A DNA stretch of 64,000 nt from Candidatus Leucobacter sulfamidivorax (lineage in GTDB: Bacteria; Actinomycetota; Actinomycetes; Actinomycetales; Microbacteriaceae): the NCBI GenBank assembly GCA_016771945.1, contig QZLF01000002.1:682001-746000 (forward strand), in the 5' to 3' direction. Below the pieces are notes generated by a model that worked only from the letters and a program-made list of their open reading frames with translations, was not told the DNA's origin and made no database searches. Positions 3,154 through 46,094 of the stretch are shown here, one piece after another (the stretch's first letter is position 1; every line of letters starts with the position of its first letter). A program made the translations under genes and the position numbers.

Positions 3154-3232
3154 GCGAGAGCACCCGCAGGGTGTGAAAGAACCCCCGGGGTGACGGCCCC
3201 CGGGGGTTCTTTCACACCCCGAGGGTGCTCTC
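3154..3232. repeat. Long imperfect palindrome, copy 1 of a three-member family; probable bidirectional terminator
   Basis: Arms ~36 nt, 34 of 36 paired, around a 6-nt loop (TGACGG). It lies between convergent genes, so it can terminate both. The arm motif (GAGAGCACCC, then GGGTGTGAAAG, then CCCCGGGG) recurs in the palindromes at 44761-44850 and 45948-46024. Shared sequence rather than shared structure alone suggests a REP-like repeat family. Confidence 0.8.
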
Positions 3233-3243
3233 GGCGTTCTCCG

Positions 3244-7353: not shown

Positions 7354-8289
7354 ATGCCCGGGCAAGGCGAGCACGAGAGCGGCTGGAGGAGCTTCGACTC
7401 CTCCCGGGTGGGGGTGCCGCGACGCACGCCGCTGTGGGAGCGCGCGACCCGGGAGCTGTTCCTGCCACTCCGGATCGAGACGGCGAACGGTCACGTCTCG
7501 GGCAGGATCGCGGGCCGCCGCGCGGGGCCGATCCGCACCATCCGGCTCGACTCCACGGCGCACTACGGCGTGCGGACGCCGGACCTCGCCGAGGGCGCGG
7601 GATCCGGGCATCTCGCCGTCGCGTTCGCGGTCTCGGGGCGGCTGGAGGTGCGGCAGTACGGTCGCCGGGTCCTGCTGGCGCCGGGCGAGTTCGCGATCTA
7701 CGACACCTCGGACGCGTTCGCCGTGGGCAGCCGCCTGCCGTTCGGCGCCCGCATCACGAGCCTTCCGTCGGATGCGCTGCAGCTGCCCTCCGGCGCCCTT
7801 GCGGGGCTCGCGGCGACCCCCTTCGACGCCTCGGCGGGAGCGGGCGTGCGAGCGCTGCTGGCCGAGTGCGAGGCCGGCCGCGTCTCGGACCCTCTGGAGC
7901 GGATCGGGCGGATCCTCGCCGCCGGCGTCCGTCTCGGGAGGGGTGAGGGGGAGGCCCGTCGTCCCGGGGACGAGGAGCTCGTGGAGGCCGTGCGAGACCT
8001 GGTGGCCTCGCGTCTCGCCGACCGGAGGCTGAGCCCGGACTTCGCAGCGGGGGTGCTCGGCGTCTCCAGGCGCCGGCTCTACTACGCGTGCTCGCGGGAG
8101 CTGGGACCGCTCGCCGGGTACATCCGCCGATGCCGGCTCGAACGGGCCTCCGCGCTGCTGCGCGATCCGGCGTGGAGCGACGCGAGCATCGCCGAGATCT
8201 CGCGGTCGTGCGGGTTCGAGGATCAGGCCCACTTCAGCCGGCTGTTCAGGCGGGCCTACGGGATCCCGCCCGTGCGGGCCCGGCGCTAG
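7354..8289 (+). CDS. AraC family transcriptional regulator
   Basis: 311 aa. The N-terminal ~200 residues are a cupin-like AraC-binding-like domain, with YGVRTPDL and RQYGRRVLLAPGEFAIYDTSD. The C-terminal ~100 residues carry the double helix-turn-helix: LSPDFAAGVLGVSRRRLYY and the signature SIAEISRSCGFEDQAHFSR.LFRRAYG. It directly follows the nitrilase gene, so nitrilase, and perhaps the divergent asparaginase, are its likely targets. No operator can be assigned. Confidence 0.9.
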   Translation: MPGQGEHESGWRSFDSSRVGVPRRTPLWERATRELFLPLRIETANGHVSGRIAGRRAGPIRTIRLDSTAHYGVRTPDLAEGAGSGHLAVAFAVSGRLEVRQYGRRVLLAPGEFAIYDTSDAFAVGSRLPFGARITSLPSDALQLPSGALAGLAATPFDASAGAGVRALLAECEAGRVSDPLERIGRILAAGVRLGRGEGEARRPGDEELVEAVRDLVASRLADRRLSPDFAAGVLGVSRRRLYYACSRELGPLAGYIRRCRLERASALLRDPAWSDASIAEISRSCGFEDQAHFSRLFRRAYGIPPVRARR

Positions 8290-8336
8290 GAGCCGCGGCC
8301 GTGTCTGTCGGCGGTGGCTCGTAGACTGGGACGACG

Positions 8337-10955
8337 ATGAGCGACTTCGAACTGCTGCCCCCGGCCGACGCCCCCTTCGGCGGGACGGGCTCCGACGACG
8401 ACCCCCTGGTCGCGGGCCTCAACCCCGAGCAGCGGCGCGCGGTCGAGGCGCGGGGTCCCGCCCTGCTCATCGTCGCGGGGGCGGGGTCGGGCAAGACCCG
8501 CGTGCTCACCCACCGCATCGCCCAGCTGATCCGCAATCGCGAGGCGTGGCCGAGCCAGATCCTCGCCATCACCTTCACGAACAAGGCCGCGAGCGAGATG
8601 CGCGAGCGCGTCGAGGCGCTGCTCGGCTCGCAGGGCGAGGGCATGTGGATCTCGACGTTCCACTCGGCGTGCGTGCGCATCCTGCGCCGCGAGGCCGAGC
8701 GCTTCGGCTACGTCTCGGGCTTCACGATCTACGACAGCGCCGACTCGCGCGCGCTACTGAAGCGCATCATCAAGGAGACCGAGGCCGACAGCTACGGCTT
8801 CACCCCGGCGAACACGAGCGCGAAGATCTCGCGGCTGAAGAACGAGCTCTCCGACGCCGACTCCTACGCGGCGACGGCGAACGAGGCGGATCCGCGCGAG
8901 CGCATCTTCGTCGAGATCTTCCGCGACTACGAGCGCGAGCTGCGCCGGGCCAACGCCTTCGACTTCGACGATCTCATCGGGCAGACGGTGCACCTCTTCC
9001 GCTCCCACCCCGAGGTCGCCGCGATCTACCAGCGCCGCTTCCGGCACATCCTCGTCGACGAGTACCAGGACACGAACCACGCGCAGTACGCGCTGATCCG
9101 CGAGCTGACGCGCCCGGTCGAGCCCGAGGTCGCGGATCGGCTCACGCCGCCCCTGCGCGAGCGCGAGGTCGACGCGGCCGGCCGCATCCCCGGCGCGAGC
9201 CTCACCGTCGTCGGCGACTCCGACCAGTCGATCTACGCCTTCCGCGGCGCCGACATCCGCAACATCGTCGAGTTCGAGCGCGACTTCCCGGGCGCGGAGG
9301 TGGTGAAGCTCGAGCAGAACTACCGCTCGACGCAGAACATCCTCTCGGCCGCGAACGCGGTGATCGGCAACAACTTCGACCGTCAGGAGAAGAACCTCTG
9401 GACGGCCGAGGGCGACGGCGCGAAGATCACCGGGTACACCGGCTACTCGCAGCACGACGAGGCCCGCTTCGTGGCCGAGGAGATCGAGGATCTGCGCCGA
9501 TCCGGCCTCGCCTACGGCGACATCGCCGTGTTCTACCGCACCAACTCGCAGACGCGCGCGCTGGAGGAGCTGCTGATCCGCTCGGCCGTCCCGTACCGGG
9601 TGCTCGGCGGCACCAAGTTCTACGAGCGGGCCGAGATCAAGGACGCGATGGCGTACCTGACGAGCCTCGCGAACCCCTACGATCCGATCGCCTGGTCGCG
9701 GCTGCTCGGCGCGCCGAAGCGCGGCATCGGGCCCATGGCGGAGGCGCAGCTCGCGAACTTCCAGGAGGCGAACGGGCTGTCGTTCCACGAGGCCATGTTG
9801 CGGGCCGACGAGATCGGCTTCGGGCCGAAGGTGCGCGGCGCGATCCTCGAGCTCGGGGGGATGCTCACGCGCGCGGCCGTCATGGCTGCGGGCGTGGTCT
9901 TCCCGGAGCAGAACGCATCGCGTTCTGCTGAAGACCGCGCTGGCTCCACTGAGCCAGGGCCGAGCGACGTCGAGGGGGAGGAGCGGAGGCCGGCTCCCGT
10001 CGGCGACCTCCTGAAGCTCATCCTCGACGAGACCCAGATGATCGAGAAGCTGCGCGAGAAGCGCGACCCCCAGGACGAGGCGCGGGCCGAGAACCTCGAG
10101 GAGCTCGTGGCGGTCGCCCGAGAGTTCGACGTGCGCGCGCCGGGGGCTGGGCTGCTCGAGTTCCTCACCGAGGTCAGCCTCGTCGCCGCGGCCGACGAGC
10201 TCGACGATCAGAGCGGCACCGTGTCGCTCATGACCCTGCACACGGCGAAGGGGCTCGAGTTCCCCGCCGTGTTCATCACGGGCGTCGAGGAAGGACTGCT
10301 GCCCCACCAGATGTCGGTCGACGAGCCGGGCGGCGTGAACGAGGAGCGTCGGCTCATGTACGTCGGCATCACCCGGGCGCGCCAGCGGCTGTACATCACC
10401 CTGGCGAGCACGCGGGCGACCTTCGGCGACATCGGCGTCGCGATGCCCTCGCGGTTCCTGCAGGAGATCCCCGCGGAGCTCATCGATTGGCGGCAGTCGC
10501 CCGGCGAGGTCACCTCTCGGGGCGGCACCGAGTCGCGGGCGCTGAACTCAGCGCGAGGGAGCGGGTCCGGCTGGAGCTCACGCGGCTCCTCCGGGCGGTC
10601 GAGCGAGTCCTCCGTGTCCTTCGGGTCGGGCGGCGGGCGCGGATCCGCCGCGGTCAGCGAGCCGGCCAGCGGCAACATGCAGTCGGCGCTCGACAAGTGG
10701 CGCGAGCGCAAGAAGGCCGCGAAGGAGGCGCAGGCGGCCGGTCGCGGCTTCCCCAACATGGTCGGCGGCGCGGTTCGGGACAACGAGCACCTCGTGCTGG
10801 CGCCGGGCGATCGCATCCGCCACGACGACTACGGCGAGGGCAGGATCACGGGCATCACCGGCGAGGGGTCCAAGCGGGTCGCCCACGCGGTGTTCGACTC
10901 GGTGGGGGAGCGCAAGCTGCTGGTCAAGCTGTCGCCGATCGAGAAGGTCGAATAG
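8337..10955 (+). CDS. pcrA: ATP-dependent DNA helicase PcrA/UvrD
   Basis: 872 aa superfamily 1A 3'-5' helicase for nucleotide-excision and mismatch repair and replication-fork clearing. Motifs in order: Q-motif LNPEQRRAVE, Walker A IVAGAGSGKT (~residue 50), AITFTNKAASEM, Walker B VDEYQDTN, GDSDQSIYAFRGAD, LEQNYRST, VSLMTLHTAKGLEFP and EERRLMYVGITRAR. The C-terminus has a Gly/Ser-rich linker and the actinobacterial tail ending LVKLSPIEKVE. Odd point: residues ~520-555 form a charged low-complexity insertion whose DNA folds into two consecutive hairpins. A TAGACT box (8322-8327) lies 9 nt before ATG. Confidence 0.95.
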   Translation: MSDFELLPPADAPFGGTGSDDDPLVAGLNPEQRRAVEARGPALLIVAGAGSGKTRVLTHRIAQLIRNREAWPSQILAITFTNKAASEMRERVEALLGSQGEGMWISTFHSACVRILRREAERFGYVSGFTIYDSADSRALLKRIIKETEADSYGFTPANTSAKISRLKNELSDADSYAATANEADPRERIFVEIFRDYERELRRANAFDFDDLIGQTVHLFRSHPEVAAIYQRRFRHILVDEYQDTNHAQYALIRELTRPVEPEVADRLTPPLREREVDAAGRIPGASLTVVGDSDQSIYAFRGADIRNIVEFERDFPGAEVVKLEQNYRSTQNILSAANAVIGNNFDRQEKNLWTAEGDGAKITGYTGYSQHDEARFVAEEIEDLRRSGLAYGDIAVFYRTNSQTRALEELLIRSAVPYRVLGGTKFYERAEIKDAMAYLTSLANPYDPIAWSRLLGAPKRGIGPMAEAQLANFQEANGLSFHEAMLRADEIGFGPKVRGAILELGGMLTRAAVMAAGVVFPEQNASRSAEDRAGSTEPGPSDVEGEERRPAPVGDLLKLILDETQMIEKLREKRDPQDEARAENLEELVAVAREFDVRAPGAGLLEFLTEVSLVAAADELDDQSGTVSLMTLHTAKGLEFPAVFITGVEEGLLPHQMSVDEPGGVNEERRLMYVGITRARQRLYITLASTRATFGDIGVAMPSRFLQEIPAELIDWRQSPGEVTSRGGTESRALNSARGSGSGWSSRGSSGRSSESSVSFGSGGGRGSAAVSEPASGNMQSALDKWRERKKAAKEAQAAGRGFPNMVGGAVRDNEHLVLAPGDRIRHDDYGEGRITGITGEGSKRVAHAVFDSVGERKLLVKLSPIEKVE
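9896..9957 (+). repeat. Two consecutive hairpins inside pcrA coding sequence
   Basis: Hairpin 1 pairs GGTCTTC plus AGCAGAACGC (9896-9902, 9907-9916) with GCGTTCTGCT plus GAAGACC (9920-9936), giving 17 bp with a 4-nt bulge and 3-nt loop. Hairpin 2 pairs CTGGCTC (9940-9946) with GAGCCAG (9951-9957). They encode an insertion-like segment (ASRSAEDRAGSTEPGPSD). They look like a REP-type palindrome captured in frame. Confidence 0.6.
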
Positions 10956-27595: not shown

Positions 27596-27605
27596 GTCTT
27601 CTGCA

Positions 27606-27697
27606 TCCACGGGGGTCCGCACGCGGCGGGCTGAGAGTGAACCACGCGGGTTCTCACCGTTCAACCTGATCTGGGTCATGCCAGCGGAGGAAGGAAT
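27606..27697 (+). ncRNA. TPP riboswitch (THI element)
   Basis: The conserved blocks are in order: ACGGGGGTC at the 5' arm, GGGCTGAGAG (pyrimidine-sensing CUGAGA loop), ACCTGATCTGGGTCATGCC (pyrophosphate-sensing region) and CAGCGGAGGAAGG at the 3' end. The last block contains the ribosome-binding site 7-8 nt before ATG 27701. Thiamine pyrophosphate binding would hide this GGAGG, so control at translation initiation is likely. It sits directly ahead of a thiamine-type ABC transporter, which confirms the identity. Confidence 0.96.
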
Positions 27698-27700
27698 CGT

Positions 27701-28837
27701 ATGAACACGTCTATTCGCGCGTCTCGAATCGCCCGGGGGTCCCGCCCCGCAGGGTCCGGGCCGAAGGCCGGAACCGGCACCGGAACCAGGGTCGGCGCGG
27801 GGATCGCCCTCGCCGCAGTGGTCGCGCTCGGTCTCGCCGGCTGCGCCACCGGTGGCGCGGGCGACAGCGGCTCGGGCGGCGATGCCGAGAAGGTCACGCT
27901 CGTCGTGCACGACTCGTTCCCGAACGACGAGTTCGCGGCGGCCGCGAGCGCGGCGACCGGCTACGACGTCGAGGTCATCACCGCCGGCGACGGCGGCGAG
28001 CTCACGAACCAGCTCGTCCTCACGAAGGGCGCCCCGATCGCCGACGCCTTCTTCGGCGTGGACAACTCCTTCGCCTCCCGCCTCGTCGAGCACGACGTGG
28101 TCGAGCCCTACCTGCCCGCCGGCCTGCCGGAGCGCGCGGAGCAGCATGCGTACGACACCGAGGGATCCCTCACCGCGGTGACCATCGGCGCCACCTGCAT
28201 CAACATCGACCCGGCCTGGTTCGCCGAGTACGGCCTCGCCGAGCCCGAGGACTACGACGATCTGATCGATCCGCGCTACGAGGGCCTCACCGTGGTGCTC
28301 GACGCCACCTCCTCGTCGACGGGCGCCTCGTTCCTCGTCGGCACGGTCGCGGCGTTCGGCGAGGACGGCTTCGCCGACTACTGGAGCGCTCTCGCCGACA
28401 ACGGCGCCCGCGTCGAGCAGGGCTGGACCGAGGCCTACAACGGCCAGTTCACCCAGGGCGGCGGCGACGGCACCTTCCCGATCGTGGTCTCGTACGGCAC
28501 CTCGCCCGCGTGGACGCTGACCGAGGACGGCTCGGCCTCGACGACGAAGGCCCTGCTCGACACCTGCTCCTCGCAGGTGGAATACGCGGGCGTGCTGAAG
28601 GGCGCCGAGAACCCCGACGGCGCCCGGGCGGTCGTCGACTTCATGCTCTCGCGCGAGTTCCAGGACACCATCGCCGACACCATGTACATGTACCCGATCG
28701 ACGCCGAGGCCTACGTGCCGGCCGAGTGGCAGGAGTTCGCGCCCGAGCCGACCGCCCCGCACGACCTCACGGCGGCCGAGATCGGCGCCGGCCGCGAGGA
28801 CTGGTTGAAGGCGTGGGCGGCCGCGACCGGCTGGTGA
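27701..28837 (+). CDS. thiB: Thiamine ABC transporter substrate-binding lipoprotein
   Basis: 378 aa. An Arg-rich, rather long N-terminus leads to lipobox LGLAGCATGG, so the protein is predicted to be anchored outside the membrane. The body is an iron/thiamine-type solute-binding protein (KVTLVVHDSFPNDEF, TKGAPIADAFFGVDNSF, GATCINIDPAWFAEYGL, VVSYGTSPAWTL). It begins 3-4 nt after the TPP riboswitch and is followed by permease and ATPase genes with overlapping start and stop codons. Thiamine or a related pyrimidine is the likely ligand. Confidence 0.93.
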   Translation: MNTSIRASRIARGSRPAGSGPKAGTGTGTRVGAGIALAAVVALGLAGCATGGAGDSGSGGDAEKVTLVVHDSFPNDEFAAAASAATGYDVEVITAGDGGELTNQLVLTKGAPIADAFFGVDNSFASRLVEHDVVEPYLPAGLPERAEQHAYDTEGSLTAVTIGATCINIDPAWFAEYGLAEPEDYDDLIDPRYEGLTVVLDATSSSTGASFLVGTVAAFGEDGFADYWSALADNGARVEQGWTEAYNGQFTQGGGDGTFPIVVSYGTSPAWTLTEDGSASTTKALLDTCSSQVEYAGVLKGAENPDGARAVVDFMLSREFQDTIADTMYMYPIDAEAYVPAEWQEFAPEPTAPHDLTAAEIGAGREDWLKAWAAATGW

Positions 28838-31747: not shown

Positions 31748-31802
31748 GCGGGCCGATCCGCCTCCGTCCGCTCCCTCCCCGTTCTTTCTCCACCCTCTCG
31801 CG

Positions 31803-31862
31803 GAACAGTTGTCACGTTGATGCTCCAAATCGCGAAATAGGGCGCCAAAGTGACAACTGTTC
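31803..31862. repeat. REP-like 60-bp inverted repeat upstream of purN
   Basis: Perfect 13-bp outer arms GAACAGTTGTCAC (31803-31815) and GTGACAACTGTTC (31850-31862) enclose a 34-nt interior that can partly extend the stem (TTGATGCTCC against GGGCGCCAA). It lies in the only longer gap between the thiamine cassette (ends 31747) and purN (starts 31917). It may terminate the thi operon or be an extragenic repeat. No other copy was noticed in the window. Confidence 0.7.
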
Positions 31863-31904
31863 AGGGGGTGAGGGGAGTAGGAGGTCGGCACTCATTCGCC
31901 CGGG

Positions 31905-31916: not shown

Positions 31917-32537
31917 GTGCTGAAGGTCGCGGTGCTCATCTCCGGGGGAGGGAGCAACCTGAAGGCGCTGCTCGCGGCGGCGGCGGATCCCGCCTACCCG
32001 GCTCGCATCGTCGCCGTCGGCAGCGACACCGACGCCGCCGGGCTCGCCCACGCGGAGGCCGCCGGGGTTCCGAGCTTCGTGGTGCGACCCCGGGACCACG
32101 ACGGCCGCGAGGCGTGGGGCGCCGCGCTGGCGGCCGCGATCCGCGACCACGGCGTGGGCCCCGGGGCGGACCCGGACGGCGATCCCTGGCTCGTCGTGAG
32201 CGCCGGGCTCATGCGCATCCTGCCGGCGGGCTTCGTGCGCGAGTTCTCGCCGCGCCTCATCAACACCCACCCCGCGCTGCTGCCGCTCTTCCCGGGTGCG
32301 CACGCGGTGCACGACGCGCTCGCCGCCGGGGCCGTCGAGACCGGTGTCACCGTGCACGTCATCGACGAGGGCGTCGACACGGGTCCGACCCTGCGCCAGG
32401 CGCGCGTCGCTATCCGCCCCGGCGAGGCCGAGGACGAGCTGCACGAGCGCATCAAGCAGCTCGAGCGTCCGCTGCTCGTCGAGACCGTGCGCGAGATCGC
32501 GTGCGGTGAATTGATTCTTCCCGATCCACCCCGCTGA
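31917..32537 (+). CDS. purN: Phosphoribosylglycinamide formyltransferase
   Basis: 206 aa from GTG 31917. The nucleotide-binding start [16 protein letters not shown] matches GART. The folate and catalytic region shows [22 protein letters not shown] with the conserved Asn-His pair, then [15 protein letters not shown] with the catalytic Asp. It transfers a formyl group from 10-formyl-THF to GAR, step 3 of purine synthesis. purH follows 88 bp downstream, the normal actinobacterial pairing. Confidence 0.96.
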
Positions 32538-32586
32538 TCGAGCCTGTCGAGATCGCGGGAGCCCGGCATCTCGACAAGCTCGATGA
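32535..32586. repeat. Extragenic palindrome of the GAGCCTGTCGAGA type
   Basis: Arms TGATCGAGCCTGTCGAGATC (32535-32554) and CATCTCGACAAGCTCGATGA (32567-32586) pair at 17 of 20 positions around a 12-nt loop. Sequences of this type (GATCGAGCCTGTCGAGA) are recurrent extragenic repeats in Microbacteriaceae and related genomes. It begins within the purN stop codon and sits between purN and purH. Confidence 0.75.
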
Positions 32587-32625
32587 CCGGCCCATACTCC
32601 TCCCACTCCGACCAGAAGGAAACAC

Positions 32626-43484: not shown

Positions 43485-44696
43485 TCACACCGCGATGCTC
43501 AGCAGCCGCTCGAGCTGCGCCCCCACGAGGTCGTGCTCGATGAGGAACGAGTCGTGCCCGAAGGGGCTGTCGAGCCGCGTCGCGAGGGGTCCGTCGAGGC
43601 TGCCGGGGGAGTGCTGCGCGATCTGATCCTGCCCGTCGATCGTGAAGAGCCGGTCGCTCGGGATGCCGAGCACGAGCGTCGGCAGGGTGAGCGCCTGGAG
43701 CGCCTCCTCGACGCCTCCGCGGCCGCGGCCCACGTCGTGGGAGTTCATGGCCTGCACGAGGGTCAGGTAGCTGTTCGCGTCGAAGCGGCGGGTGAACTTG
43801 TTGCCGTGGAAGTCGAGGTAGCTCTCGACGGCGAAGCGGCCCCCGCCGCCCAGCGGGCTCACCGCCGACTGCCACGCGCGGCCGAAGCGCTCGTCGAGCT
43901 CGGTGTTGCTGCGGTAGTTGAGGAGCGCCAGGCGCCGCGCTGTCGCGAGCCCGTGATGCGGGCCCACTCCGTCGGGCGCGTCGTAGTAGTCGCCGCCGCG
44001 CCAGGCGGGGTCGGTGCGGATGGCCTCGAGCTGCACGAGGTTCAGGCCGATCTGATCCGCCGTCGTCACCGGTGGCGCGGCGATGACCGCGAGGCGTTCG
44101 GCGCGTCCCGGATGCATGAGCCCCCACTCGAGGGCGTGCATGCCGCCGACGGATCCGCCGATGGCGGCGACGAAGCGCTCGATGCCGAGCGCGTCGGCGA
44201 ACGCCGCGGCCGCCGTGACCTGGTCGCGGATGGTCAGGTATGGGAAGCGGCCGCCCCATTCGGTGTGGTCGGGCGCGAGGCTCGCGGGCCCCGTCGAGCC
44301 CTGGCAGCCGCCGAGCACGTTCGGCGCGACGATGCAGTACCGCTCGGTGTCGAGGGCCCGGCCGGGGCCGACGACGTCGCTCCACCAGCCGTCGGTAGGA
44401 TGACCGGGGCCGGCGTCGCCCACGAGGTGGCTGTCGCCGGTGAGCGCGTGGAAGACGAGGATCGCGTTGTCCTTCTGCTCGTTCAGCTCGCCGAAGGTCT
44501 CGTAGGCGATGCGGACGTGGGGGATCTCCGCGCCGCCCTCGGTGCGCACCGTGCCGATGCTCGCGAAGCGGCGGTCGCCCACGGGATCTCCGTCGCGCCA
44601 GCCGCCGCTGATGGGCGGGCGGCCGATGATGGCCCGCAGCTGGGCGTCGGTGATGAAGTCCGTCGGGGACGAGTCCTCGGGAGTCTGCCAATCCAT
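43485..44696 (-). CDS. metX: Homoserine O-acetyltransferase
   Basis: 403 aa. Alpha/beta-hydrolase of the MetX family: IAYETFGELNEQKDNAILVFHALTG, NVLGGCQGSTGP, the nucleophile Ser in IGGSVGGMHALEW, and C-terminal Asp/His elements (LGIPSDRLF, FGHDSFLIE). It acetylates homoserine for direct sulfhydrylation by MetY, whose gene lies upstream on the same strand at 46095-47420. The two are separated by a gene on the opposite strand. GGGGAG precedes ATG 44696, suggesting its own translation start and probably its own promoter. Confidence 0.95.
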   Translation of the reverse strand: MDWQTPEDSSPTDFITDAQLRAIIGRPPISGGWRDGDPVGDRRFASIGTVRTEGGAEIPHVRIAYETFGELNEQKDNAILVFHALTGDSHLVGDAGPGHPTDGWWSDVVGPGRALDTERYCIVAPNVLGGCQGSTGPASLAPDHTEWGGRFPYLTIRDQVTAAAAFADALGIERFVAAIGGSVGGMHALEWGLMHPGRAERLAVIAAPPVTTADQIGLNLVQLEAIRTDPAWRGGDYYDAPDGVGPHHGLATARRLALLNYRSNTELDERFGRAWQSAVSPLGGGGRFAVESYLDFHGNKFTRRFDANSYLTLVQAMNSHDVGRGRGGVEEALQALTLPTLVLGIPSDRLFTIDGQDQIAQHSPGSLDGPLATRLDSPFGHDSFLIEHDLVGAQLERLLSIAV

Positions 44697-44760: not shown

Positions 44761-44850
44761 CCCGGTGAGAGCATGCGCAGGGGGTGAGAGAACGCCTGGG
44801 GTGACTTGCCCAGTGCATGCTTTCACCCCCGACCGATGCTTTCACCCGGG
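44761..44850. repeat. Long imperfect palindrome, copy 2 of the family
   Basis: The left arm has GTGAGAGCATGCGCAGGGG then GTGAGAGAACGCCTGGGG; the right arm reads TTGCCCAGTGCATGCTTTC, ACCCCCGACCGATGCTTTC and ACCCGGG. Arms of ~42 nt pair imperfectly. The repeated unit GTGAAAGCAT...GGGGGTGAAAG is shared with copies at 3154-3232 and 45948-46024. It lies between the starts of metX and the AbiEi/nuclease-like gene, which transcribe away from each other. Confidence 0.75.
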
Positions 44851-44970
44851 TCGGCGCGGGACGGGAAGAAGCAGGGCCATTCGGCGTGCACAGGGCAGAC
44901 CCCGCGTGGGCTCTCCACAGATCGCGGTTCTCAGGCGTCGCGGGGGTCATGAGTGGCCGATGATCGACGC

Positions 44971-45942
44971 ATGGACATCGCCACGCGCATCGCCGGGTTC
45001 GAGGAGTCGCTCGCCTTCACGAGCCGAAGTGAGCGTCTCGACCCGCGGTCGGCGACACGACTGCACCGTGGAATCTATCTGCCGGTCGAGATCTCGGCAT
45101 CCCTTCGTCCCGAAGACCGCCATCTCGCACGCGTGCTGGCCGTCCAGGAGCGCGCAGTCGGCGGACCGGTCTTCTCGCACGTCTCGGCGGCGGTGCTGCT
45201 CGGGCTGCCGCTGCACTCGGGCGCGGATGGGCCGGTCCACCTCACCACCCGCGTCGCGGGACCGAATCGGCGGAGTCCCGGGATCGTGCGGCACCGGGCG
45301 CCGCTGGCGGAGCACGAGGTGGTCGAGGTCTGCGGGCTGCTCTGCACGAGCCCCGACCGGACGCTGCTCGATCTGGCCCGCTTCGAGCCTGCCGAGACGG
45401 CGATCTCCTGCGCGGACGCCTTCCTCCGCCGGGAGTTCCGGGTGGATCGCCGGATCGACCACCTGCGACTCGAGTGCTGGCGCGGCGGCATGCTCGAGAC
45501 GCTGGCCCGCATGCCGGGGGAGCGGGGTGTTCTCCGGGCGCAGGAGGTTCTGGAGCTGGCCGATCCGCGCACCGACTCGGTGCTCGAGAGCGTGAGCCAC
45601 CTCTACCTGCGCCGGCTCGGCTTCGACGTCGAGCTGCAGGTGCCCGTGCCCTCGCCGACCGGCGGGACGTACTTCGTGGACTTCGAGTTCCTCGGCCTGG
45701 GCCTCTTCGGCGAGTGCGACGGCAAGGCGAAGTACCTCGACGAGCGCCTGCGCGGCGGGAACTCGGCCGACGAGCTTGTGTACCGGGAGAAGCGGCGCGA
45801 GAACTGGATCACGGGCACCACGCGGAACGACATGATCCGCTGGGGCTGGCCCGAGACCGCCACGATCCACCGCTTCGCAAGGCATCTGTCGGCGTGCAGG
45901 GTGCGGATACCGCGCCGGCCCGGTCCGCCGCGTCCGAGATGA
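44971..45942 (+). CDS. AbiEi-like / PD-(D/E)XK nuclease-like protein of unknown function
   Basis: 323 aa from ATG 44971; GTG 44953 is in frame. The N-terminal ~70 residues (RLDPRSATRLHRGIYLPVE) recall the winged-helix AbiEi antitoxin module. The middle (FSHVSAAVLLGLPL, SPDRTLLDLARFE) is typical of actinobacterial AbiEi/DUF559-like proteins. The C-terminal part shows TYFVDFEFLGLGLFGECDGKAKY, a D...ExDGK arrangement fitting a PD-(D/E)XK nuclease core. It is bracketed by two related palindromes and sits inverted between metY and metX, as an inserted cassette would. Function could be nuclease, regulator or TA component. Confidence 0.6.
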   Translation: MDIATRIAGFEESLAFTSRSERLDPRSATRLHRGIYLPVEISASLRPEDRHLARVLAVQERAVGGPVFSHVSAAVLLGLPLHSGADGPVHLTTRVAGPNRRSPGIVRHRAPLAEHEVVEVCGLLCTSPDRTLLDLARFEPAETAISCADAFLRREFRVDRRIDHLRLECWRGGMLETLARMPGERGVLRAQEVLELADPRTDSVLESVSHLYLRRLGFDVELQVPVPSPTGGTYFVDFEFLGLGLFGECDGKAKYLDERLRGGNSADELVYREKRRENWITGTTRNDMIRWGWPETATIHRFARHLSACRVRIPRRPGPPRPR

Positions 45943-45947
45943 GACGC

Positions 45948-46024
45948 GAAAGCACCCCTCGGGGGTGAGAGCATGCCCGGGGAATGGTTCCCGGCAGATG
46001 CTTTCACCCCCGAGGGGTGCTTTC
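45948..46024. repeat. Long imperfect palindrome, copy 3 of the family
   Basis: Arms of 37 nt (45948-45984 and 45988-46024) around a 3-nt TGG loop pair at 32 of 37 positions. The left arm begins GAAAGCACCCCTCGGGGGTG and continues AGAGCATGCCCGGGGAA. It starts 6 nt after the nuclease-like gene stop and faces the metY 3' end, so it can terminate both. Confidence 0.85.
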
Positions 46025-46094
46025 AGCGGAGTGGGGCGAGGCGCGTTACGCGTCGCCTGGCGCGGTGGCGCCAGTGCAGCGAGGGAGGAGGGGG

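Follow-up and report, generated by a model that had tools for sequence, protein, structure and literature searches.

In the window, a stretch of 64,000 nucleotides from the Candidatus Leucobacter sulfamidivorax genome (G000, 3.84 Mb in 11 contigs), metX and metY are separated by a single gene on the opposite strand, and this gene is bracketed by two related repeats. Which kind of protein the gene encodes and how the repeats belong to it is the question that we address here. The initial annotation had noted palindromes of one family on both sides of this lone plus-strand gene, and this was borne out: the upstream and the downstream element belong to one family and share 70% identity over 88 nt. 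The coordinates of the features are listed in Table 1; for the gene, an alternative GTG start is possible at 44953.

Table 1. Features of the metYX locus and a solitary array of the same family; positions are those of the window.
Feature	Position	Strand	Remarks
metX	43485-44696	-	left neighbour of the inserted unit; named by eye from the translation
upstream four-site array, 81 bp	44765-44845	.	direct pair GTGAGAGCA and GTGAGAGAA with 19-bp spacing, followed by an inverted pair of GTGAAAGCA with 19-bp spacing
nuclease-like gene, 323 codons	44971-45942 (ATG to stop)	+	sole gene separating metX and metY
downstream four-site array, 81 bp	45946-46026	.	starts 3 nt past the stop codon; 37-nt arms, 86% complementary
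metY	46095 to about 47531	-	right neighbour of the inserted unit; named by eye from the translation
solitary 81-bp array, window family	3154-3234	.	between two convergent genes; without an adjoining nuclease-like gene

Both flanking elements are better described as four-site arrays than as palindromes. The site is about 10 bp long (roughly YGARAGCAYSC), and an array consists of two direct sites 19 bp apart, the centre and two inverted sites, again 19 bp apart. The long, more or less perfect palindrome noticed earlier results from this four-site layout as a whole; the upstream element, an imperfect palindrome, was not reported by the palindrome scan. A motif scan of 464 kb of G000 around the window revealed exactly five window-type arrays, and 20 column-permuted motifs gave on average 0.05 arrays at thresholds 16 and 18 and none from 20 up. 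Together with the controls of the period-19 scan described below, this control rules out a chance origin of the arrays. Genes for TnsB/TnsC, a reverse transcriptase or a methyltransferase were not seen by eye among the open reading frames between 40.5 and 49.5 kb of the window.

To place the unit in its genomic surroundings, we compared the metX loci of related Leucobacter genomes (the best 30 of 53 matching genomes, 54 searched). In 20 of the 30 loci the end of metY is 75-251 bp away from the start of metX; outside the arrays, the window has 68 bp of intergenic DNA on each side, 136 bp in total. This agreement supports the earlier proposal that the array-gene-array unit is an insertion between metY and metX. 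In five loci the two genes are separated by 0.8-1.4 kb of other sequence (L202, L206, L215, L221, L223), and in two metY is absent from the retrieved stretch. If most relatives carried the gene at this place without palindromes, the unit would hardly be an insertion; the nuclease-like gene was found between metY and metX in only three of the 30 loci, G000, its sister species G046 and G026. A target-site duplication at the inserted unit was not seen by eye. In a tree of the Leucobacter homologues, from which 6 of 81 proteins were left out, the metYX genes of these three genomes form one clade (support 100/95). Because they form one clade and occupy the same place, we regard them as orthologues, and their presence at the same site in three species suggests that the mobility of the gene is low. 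Judged by position and tree, the window copy is inherited at the metYX site and is not a recent hop. Of the mobile palindrome-gene-palindrome unit suggested by the initial annotation, the insertion thus stands; the simple palindromes have to be replaced by four-site arrays, and the orthologues in two further species argue against a recent move. Four further Leucobacter genomes have a homologue at the opposite side of metX, in convergent orientation to it (L105/L210, L098/L211, L218, L101). The metX neighbourhood may be a favoured site.

Three further features of the window were recorded. A TPP riboswitch (27599-27709, plus strand) is the only match of the window at the Rfam gathering level. 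An inverted repeat of CCGCTGATCGAGCCTGTCGAGATCGCGGG and its complement lies at 32531-32590; a similar string is present in the metY-metX gap of L210, and it is perhaps a separate repeat family. A long imperfect inverted repeat at 31783-31882 has arms of 50 nt (70%), one of which contains TGACAACTGTTC.

The window gene is, according to profile searches, a member of a very large family. At E<=0.001, 48 of the 54 Leucobacter genomes have homologues, with up to seven matches per genome, and in the taxonomic family, the Microbacteriaceae, at least 180 of 249 genomes and at least 66 of 84 genera contain them (E<=1e-10). Among genomes sampled across the phylum 53 of 198 have matches, many of which cover only part of the profile. 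We rejected a reading of the gene as plasmid or phage cargo: plasmids gave only three distant records with at most 35% identity, phages had no match at E<=1e-5, and viral contigs had none either. For the analyses of the flanks we used a Leucobacter set of 81 genes, which comprises the window gene and 80 of the 92 non-own matches at E<1e-30.

The protein was proposed to start with an AbiEi-like part and to end with a PD-(D/E)XK-like part, and conserved residues, weak Pfam and Foldseek matches and a structural model all agree with this division. The limits, read from model and alignment, are about residues 1-200 for the AbiEi-like and about 201-310 for the PD-(D/E)XK-like part. The latter contains D237, E248-C-D250-G-K-A-K254-Y255, E273 and R276. 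D237 and E248 are each conserved in 80 of the 81 homologues, and D250, G251, K254, R276, E206 and Q223 are invariant in all 81. An AlphaFold2 model computed with the window protein and 22 homologues of named records had a mean pLDDT of 91.4 and a pTM of 0.88. In a Foldseek search of the PDB with this model, the top match was Rv2827c (1zel, E 1.2e-3), followed by an R2 retrotransposon protein and, lower down, by PvuRts1I/AbaSI, TnsA and Vsr, all with weak E-values; no entry reached E<=0.001, and unrelated ones such as mitoribosomal proteins were intermixed. Pfam AbiEi_4 gave a weak match in 9 of 34 homologues. The window protein itself had no match in Pfam and NCBIfam, and a sequence search of the PDB with the family profile returned four chance-level matches only. 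We read the protein, as modelled, as an AbiEi-like DNA-binding half fused to a PD-(D/E)XK-like nuclease half.

Repeats next to the gene are common in the Leucobacter set. Close to the 81 genes (within 500 bp), the density of palindromes of at least 55 nt is 0.465 per kb, compared to 0.0084 per kb in the remainder of these loci (37 versus 7). Low-threshold scans for arrays are noise (3512 far matches at score 27), and only high scores were used. At a score of at least 35 of 40, a four-site array of period 19 is present on one or both sides of 48 of the 81 genes, compared to 5 of 81 at period 18 and at most 4 at any other period between 14 and 25; at period 19, shuffled flanks and flanks at a distance of 3.5 kb gave none. 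With the looser cut of 34 the number rises to 61, and both controls remain at 0. A period-19 array was not found for 33 of the 81 genes at the stricter and for 20 at the looser cut. The enrichment of period 19 together with the empty controls indicates that the layout is a trait of the family, with a fixed step of 19 bp, which is about two helical turns. The sites themselves vary from gene to gene (GAGAGGCCAT in L084, CAGTACGAA in L076, GAGCTGCCA in L137), and by inspection many of them open with a common YGA.

The two flanks of a gene tend to agree with each other. For 35 of 80 genes, the agreement between upstream and downstream motif exceeds the 95th percentile of mismatched gene pairs (4 expected), and in 28 of 80 the partner from the own flank ranks first (1 expected). 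Flank-to-flank blastn matches at E<=1e-6 were found for 32 of 80 genes and in 1 of 304 shifted controls; at E<=1e-3 the numbers are 46 of 80 and 16 of 304, and 34 genes have no match at this cut. The layout recurs in other genera of the Microbacteriaceae: among 26 loci, a near array of period 19 was found in 19 and a flank match at E<=1e-6 in 16 (no control set). Beyond this family the 19-bp layout is rare, with one near period-19 array in 29 loci. Flank-to-flank matches at E<=1e-6 are nevertheless present there in 15 of 18 loci and in 0 of 66 controls, the 18 being 17 loci from other families, taken non-randomly from among the strongest profile matches, and one distant paralogue of G000. Eight of these 18 have a long palindrome on both sides and four on one side, and the remaining matched repeats are below the palindrome cut. 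The distant paralogue of G000 (L286; G000:C1:1055001-1072000, gene match at 8180-8506) is bracketed by matched palindromes, CTCAAGGGGACGCGAATTG, and a solitary copy of this palindrome lies at G000:C2:836079-836140.

The array of the window gene is also scattered over the genome. G000 contains at least 18 window-type arrays, of which two flank the gene and at least 16 are solitary. Blastn at E<=1 identified 17 window-array loci and missed the array at 3154, and the candidate lists are incomplete, so that the counts of solitary arrays are lower bounds. Seventeen of the 18 arrays are exactly 81 bp long; one degenerate copy was found at C4:27881. The information content is 1.21 bits per column inside the arrays and 0.16 outside, and even the columns inside the array that do not belong to the motif reach 0.86 bits, compared to 0.16 in the flanks. 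Of the 16 solitary arrays, one is inside a predicted gene and two were left unclassified; among the 13 classifiable ones, eight lie between convergent and five between co-directional genes and none between divergent genes, according to gene calls made with a crude GC-position rule, two applications of which disagree on the neighbour of C2:532418. The background is 32 convergent, 88 co-directional and 41 divergent. These comparisons, made on sequence level, showed that the same 81-bp array is scattered as a sharply bounded unit, mostly at the 3′ ends of genes. In place of the array at 3154, a different hairpin and no array is present in the sister genome G046; the flanking gene chosen for this comparison was found in just one further genome. 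A third family of array-like palindromes, GCTCAGCCGG, with a period of about 18, was observed at G000:C2:836174 and 850909 and, in L091 (G016), about 4.4 kb downstream of the gene of that locus.

These positions bear on a reading in which the arrays are operators or insulators. An autoregulated AbiEi-type DNA-binding protein would control its own gene, the scattered arrays would be its regulon or bidirectional terminators, and the nuclease half would have another role, for instance in defence. According to PMC7319586, antitoxins of the AbiEi family bind several inverted repeats in the promoters of their own genes; many of the genes studied here have an array upstream, and the arrays would be expected to form strong hairpins. 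Against this reading, the gene has arrays at both ends, the classifiable solitary arrays are absent from divergent promoters and lie at the 3′ ends of genes, the whole 81-bp unit is copied and not only the sites, and the array families are not common to the species of the genus. The copying of the whole unit and the positions of the solitary arrays led us to reject the simple operator reading as first choice, and we consider it unlikely.

Apart from weak matches, array families were not found in genomes without the matching gene. The array of L084 in G051 occupies at least 17 loci, at least 15 of them solitary; elsewhere it gave only five weak matches (E>1e-4), spread over 4 of the 53 other genomes. 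Four motifs are resident in G026, of which 400 kb were scanned: the metYX gene has two solitary arrays in this stretch and L143 one, the L096 motif is present at its own gene only and the L141 motif is absent; none of eight non-resident motifs was found there at a score of at least 26. Eleven foreign motifs searched in 464 kb of G000 gave nothing at a score of at least 34, and three had one weak match each (L067 at 30-34, L084 and L133 at 26-30). The initial annotation had named palindromes found genome-wide with no association to the gene family as the observation that would contradict it; the palindromes are indeed found genome-wide, but they track the resident gene.

This association extends to the sequence of the protein. 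The metYX arrays of G000, G046 and G026 have the same flanks and different sequences. Between G000 and its sister species G046, metX is 94% and the nuclease part (residues 201-310) 86% identical, whereas residues 28-66 are only 49% identical; for G026 the contrast is smaller (65% in the nuclease part, 56% in residues 28-66). We scored the motifs of 20 protein pairs with a nuclease identity of at least 0.70. The identity of residues 28-66 is 0.62-0.92 in the eight pairs with the same motif and 0.33-0.59 in the 12 with different motifs, without overlap; the split (same at 7.4 or more, different at 5.5 or less) was chosen after viewing the list, the pairs share proteins, and some calls of a different motif may be failed motif detections, for instance L110 and L089. 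The AUC for the distinction between same and different motif is 1.0 for residues 28-66, 0.88 for the middle part and 0.79 for the nuclease. A global Mantel test on all pairs did not favour the N-terminal part (r 0.19, compared to 0.23 for the nuclease), and it does not discriminate between the domains since every domain was above all 2000 permutations. Within these data sets, the comparisons showed that the array sequence is specific to the resident gene and apparently turns over with it. That gene and array co-diversify is nearly certain.

A change of both flanking arrays between orthologous loci, accompanied by the dispersed copies in G026, would also be expected from a gene-conversion driver, in which the nuclease cuts the arrays and these are homogenised by repair, with another array copy or the gene locus as template. 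Similar to a homing endonuclease, such a driver can carry the gene into a solitary array, and recombination with a solitary array could yield the array-gene-array order. Against it, only 3 of 30 metX loci carry the gene at the metYX site. In addition, a classical homing endonuclease gene interrupts its site upon insertion, whereas complete arrays are present on both flanks of the window gene and the presumed site would not be destroyed. We regard this explanation as improbable, slightly more so than the operators.

Solitary arrays outnumber the gene-linked ones, and bacteria commonly have small repeats that are mobilised in trans. The arrays could therefore be miniature elements moved by an unrelated transposase, with the nuclease gene as mere cargo or neighbour. 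The arrays are, however, gene-specific on both flanks, and the array sequence goes with the resident gene and the N-terminal part of its protein. The window array has no match at E<=1e-4 in any of the 53 other Leucobacter genomes, and was thus not found in a genome without the cognate gene. A search for the Y1 transposase family, the only transposase family searched for, found PF01797 in neither of the two genomes G000 and G051, while 5 of 14 control genomes were positive. We give the miniature elements hardly any weight. The absence of PF01797 from both genomes also rules out that a RAYT spread the arrays and agrees with the REP-like organisation without a RAYT that had been suggested initially.

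The explanation that we prefer, with somewhat better than even confidence, is that of a REP-like cassette whose enzyme is unrelated to RAYT, an analogue of REP-RAYT in which the array is read by the N-terminal part and spread or maintained by the nuclease. AbiEi and Rv2827c bind several inverted repeats (PMC7319586), and the N-terminal part is expected to act on the sites in an analogous way; it is very likely that the predicted protein binds its own array. The AbiEi-like part would recognise the sites of about 10 bp, probably with two monomers on each pair spaced by 19 bp, and the two pairs of monomers would face each other across the palindrome centre and gather the nuclease domains there. 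The C-terminal nuclease might then nick or cut at the array, perhaps at a replication fork, when the array is extruded or single-stranded; copies at new places would result from repair. With an array on each flank, the gene would stay together with its own sites, and these arrays may also repress it. A change in N-terminal specificity would leave the old arrays to decay, and new ones would be made or converted. The arrays are dispersed as whole units, were found only with the cognate gene and differ where the orthologue differs, which is the pattern of RAYT and REP (PMC2817692, PMC8266576), and spread by cutting and repair is taken as the most likely route. Whether the putative nuclease activity is needed for this spread is an evenly balanced question.

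The chances appear about equal that these genes are a second, independent invention of a REP-type genome parasite or domesticated element: a group of actinobacterial AbiEi-nuclease fusions, each reading, cutting and spreading its own multi-site palindromic array, in which the DNA-binding part and the arrays change together and the nuclease is conserved. We found no description of AbiEi-nuclease genes with flanking palindromes in the open-licence literature of PubMed Central, the scope of this search. If this reading is true, a non-homologous enzyme has the organisation of a REPtron, the arrangement evolved more than once, and its purpose can be asked. One genus contains dozens of natural pairs of protein and site, which makes the DNA-recognition code and its change between sister species directly testable.

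Dispersed palindromes are common in bacteria, and to our knowledge RAYT is the only enzyme family that has been tied to them gene by gene. Two other known systems resemble parts of the window protein. The first half may have the same fold as the antitoxins of AbiE type IV toxin-antitoxin systems and Rv2827c (1zel is the best PDB match, Pfam AbiEi_4 is weak); PMC7319586 describes Rv2827c as an AbiEi-type antitoxin and AbiEi-type proteins as binders of multiple inverted repeats. In contrast to AbiE, no AbiEii nucleotidyltransferase adjoins the window gene, whose neighbours are metX and metY, the window protein has a fused nuclease-like domain, and arrays are present on both sides of the gene and dispersed. 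The genuine AbiEi-AbiEii operon of G000 (L285 7987-9716; G000:C2:145987-147716) has no matched flanks, the best flank match being 13 nt (E 0.013). As a separate observation, a solitary window-type array is located on either side of this operon (C2:141720 and 152315). Vsr, PvuRts1I/AbaSI, TnsA and R2 probably share a PD-(D/E)XK-type fold with the second half, as suggested by the weak Foldseek matches and the D..ExDGxxK residues; their N-terminal domain is different.

The closest likeness is to REP-RAYT. In PMC2817692 and PMC8266576, a REPtron is described as a gene between two palindromic repeats; the repeat is also dispersed over the genome, each gene has its own repeat sequence, and both co-evolve. 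Like a RAYT gene, the window gene is flanked on both sides by cognate repeats that are dispersed in the genome. The enzyme and its predicted fold differ, since RAYT is an HUH Y1 transposase and the window protein is AbiEi-like and PD-(D/E)XK-like. The repeat is an 81-bp four-site array with a 19-bp period, compared to 20-40 bp for REPs in PMC3733652, and occupies about 17 loci per genome (a lower bound), whereas REPs usually have more than 100 copies according to PMC2817692. The GT(A/G)G head beside the hairpin described there (PMC2817692) is absent at both edges of the consensus of 17 arrays, and the flanks are unconserved. Having neither the enzyme of a REPtron nor the partner of AbiE, the system is not a REPtron, but it probably works like one.
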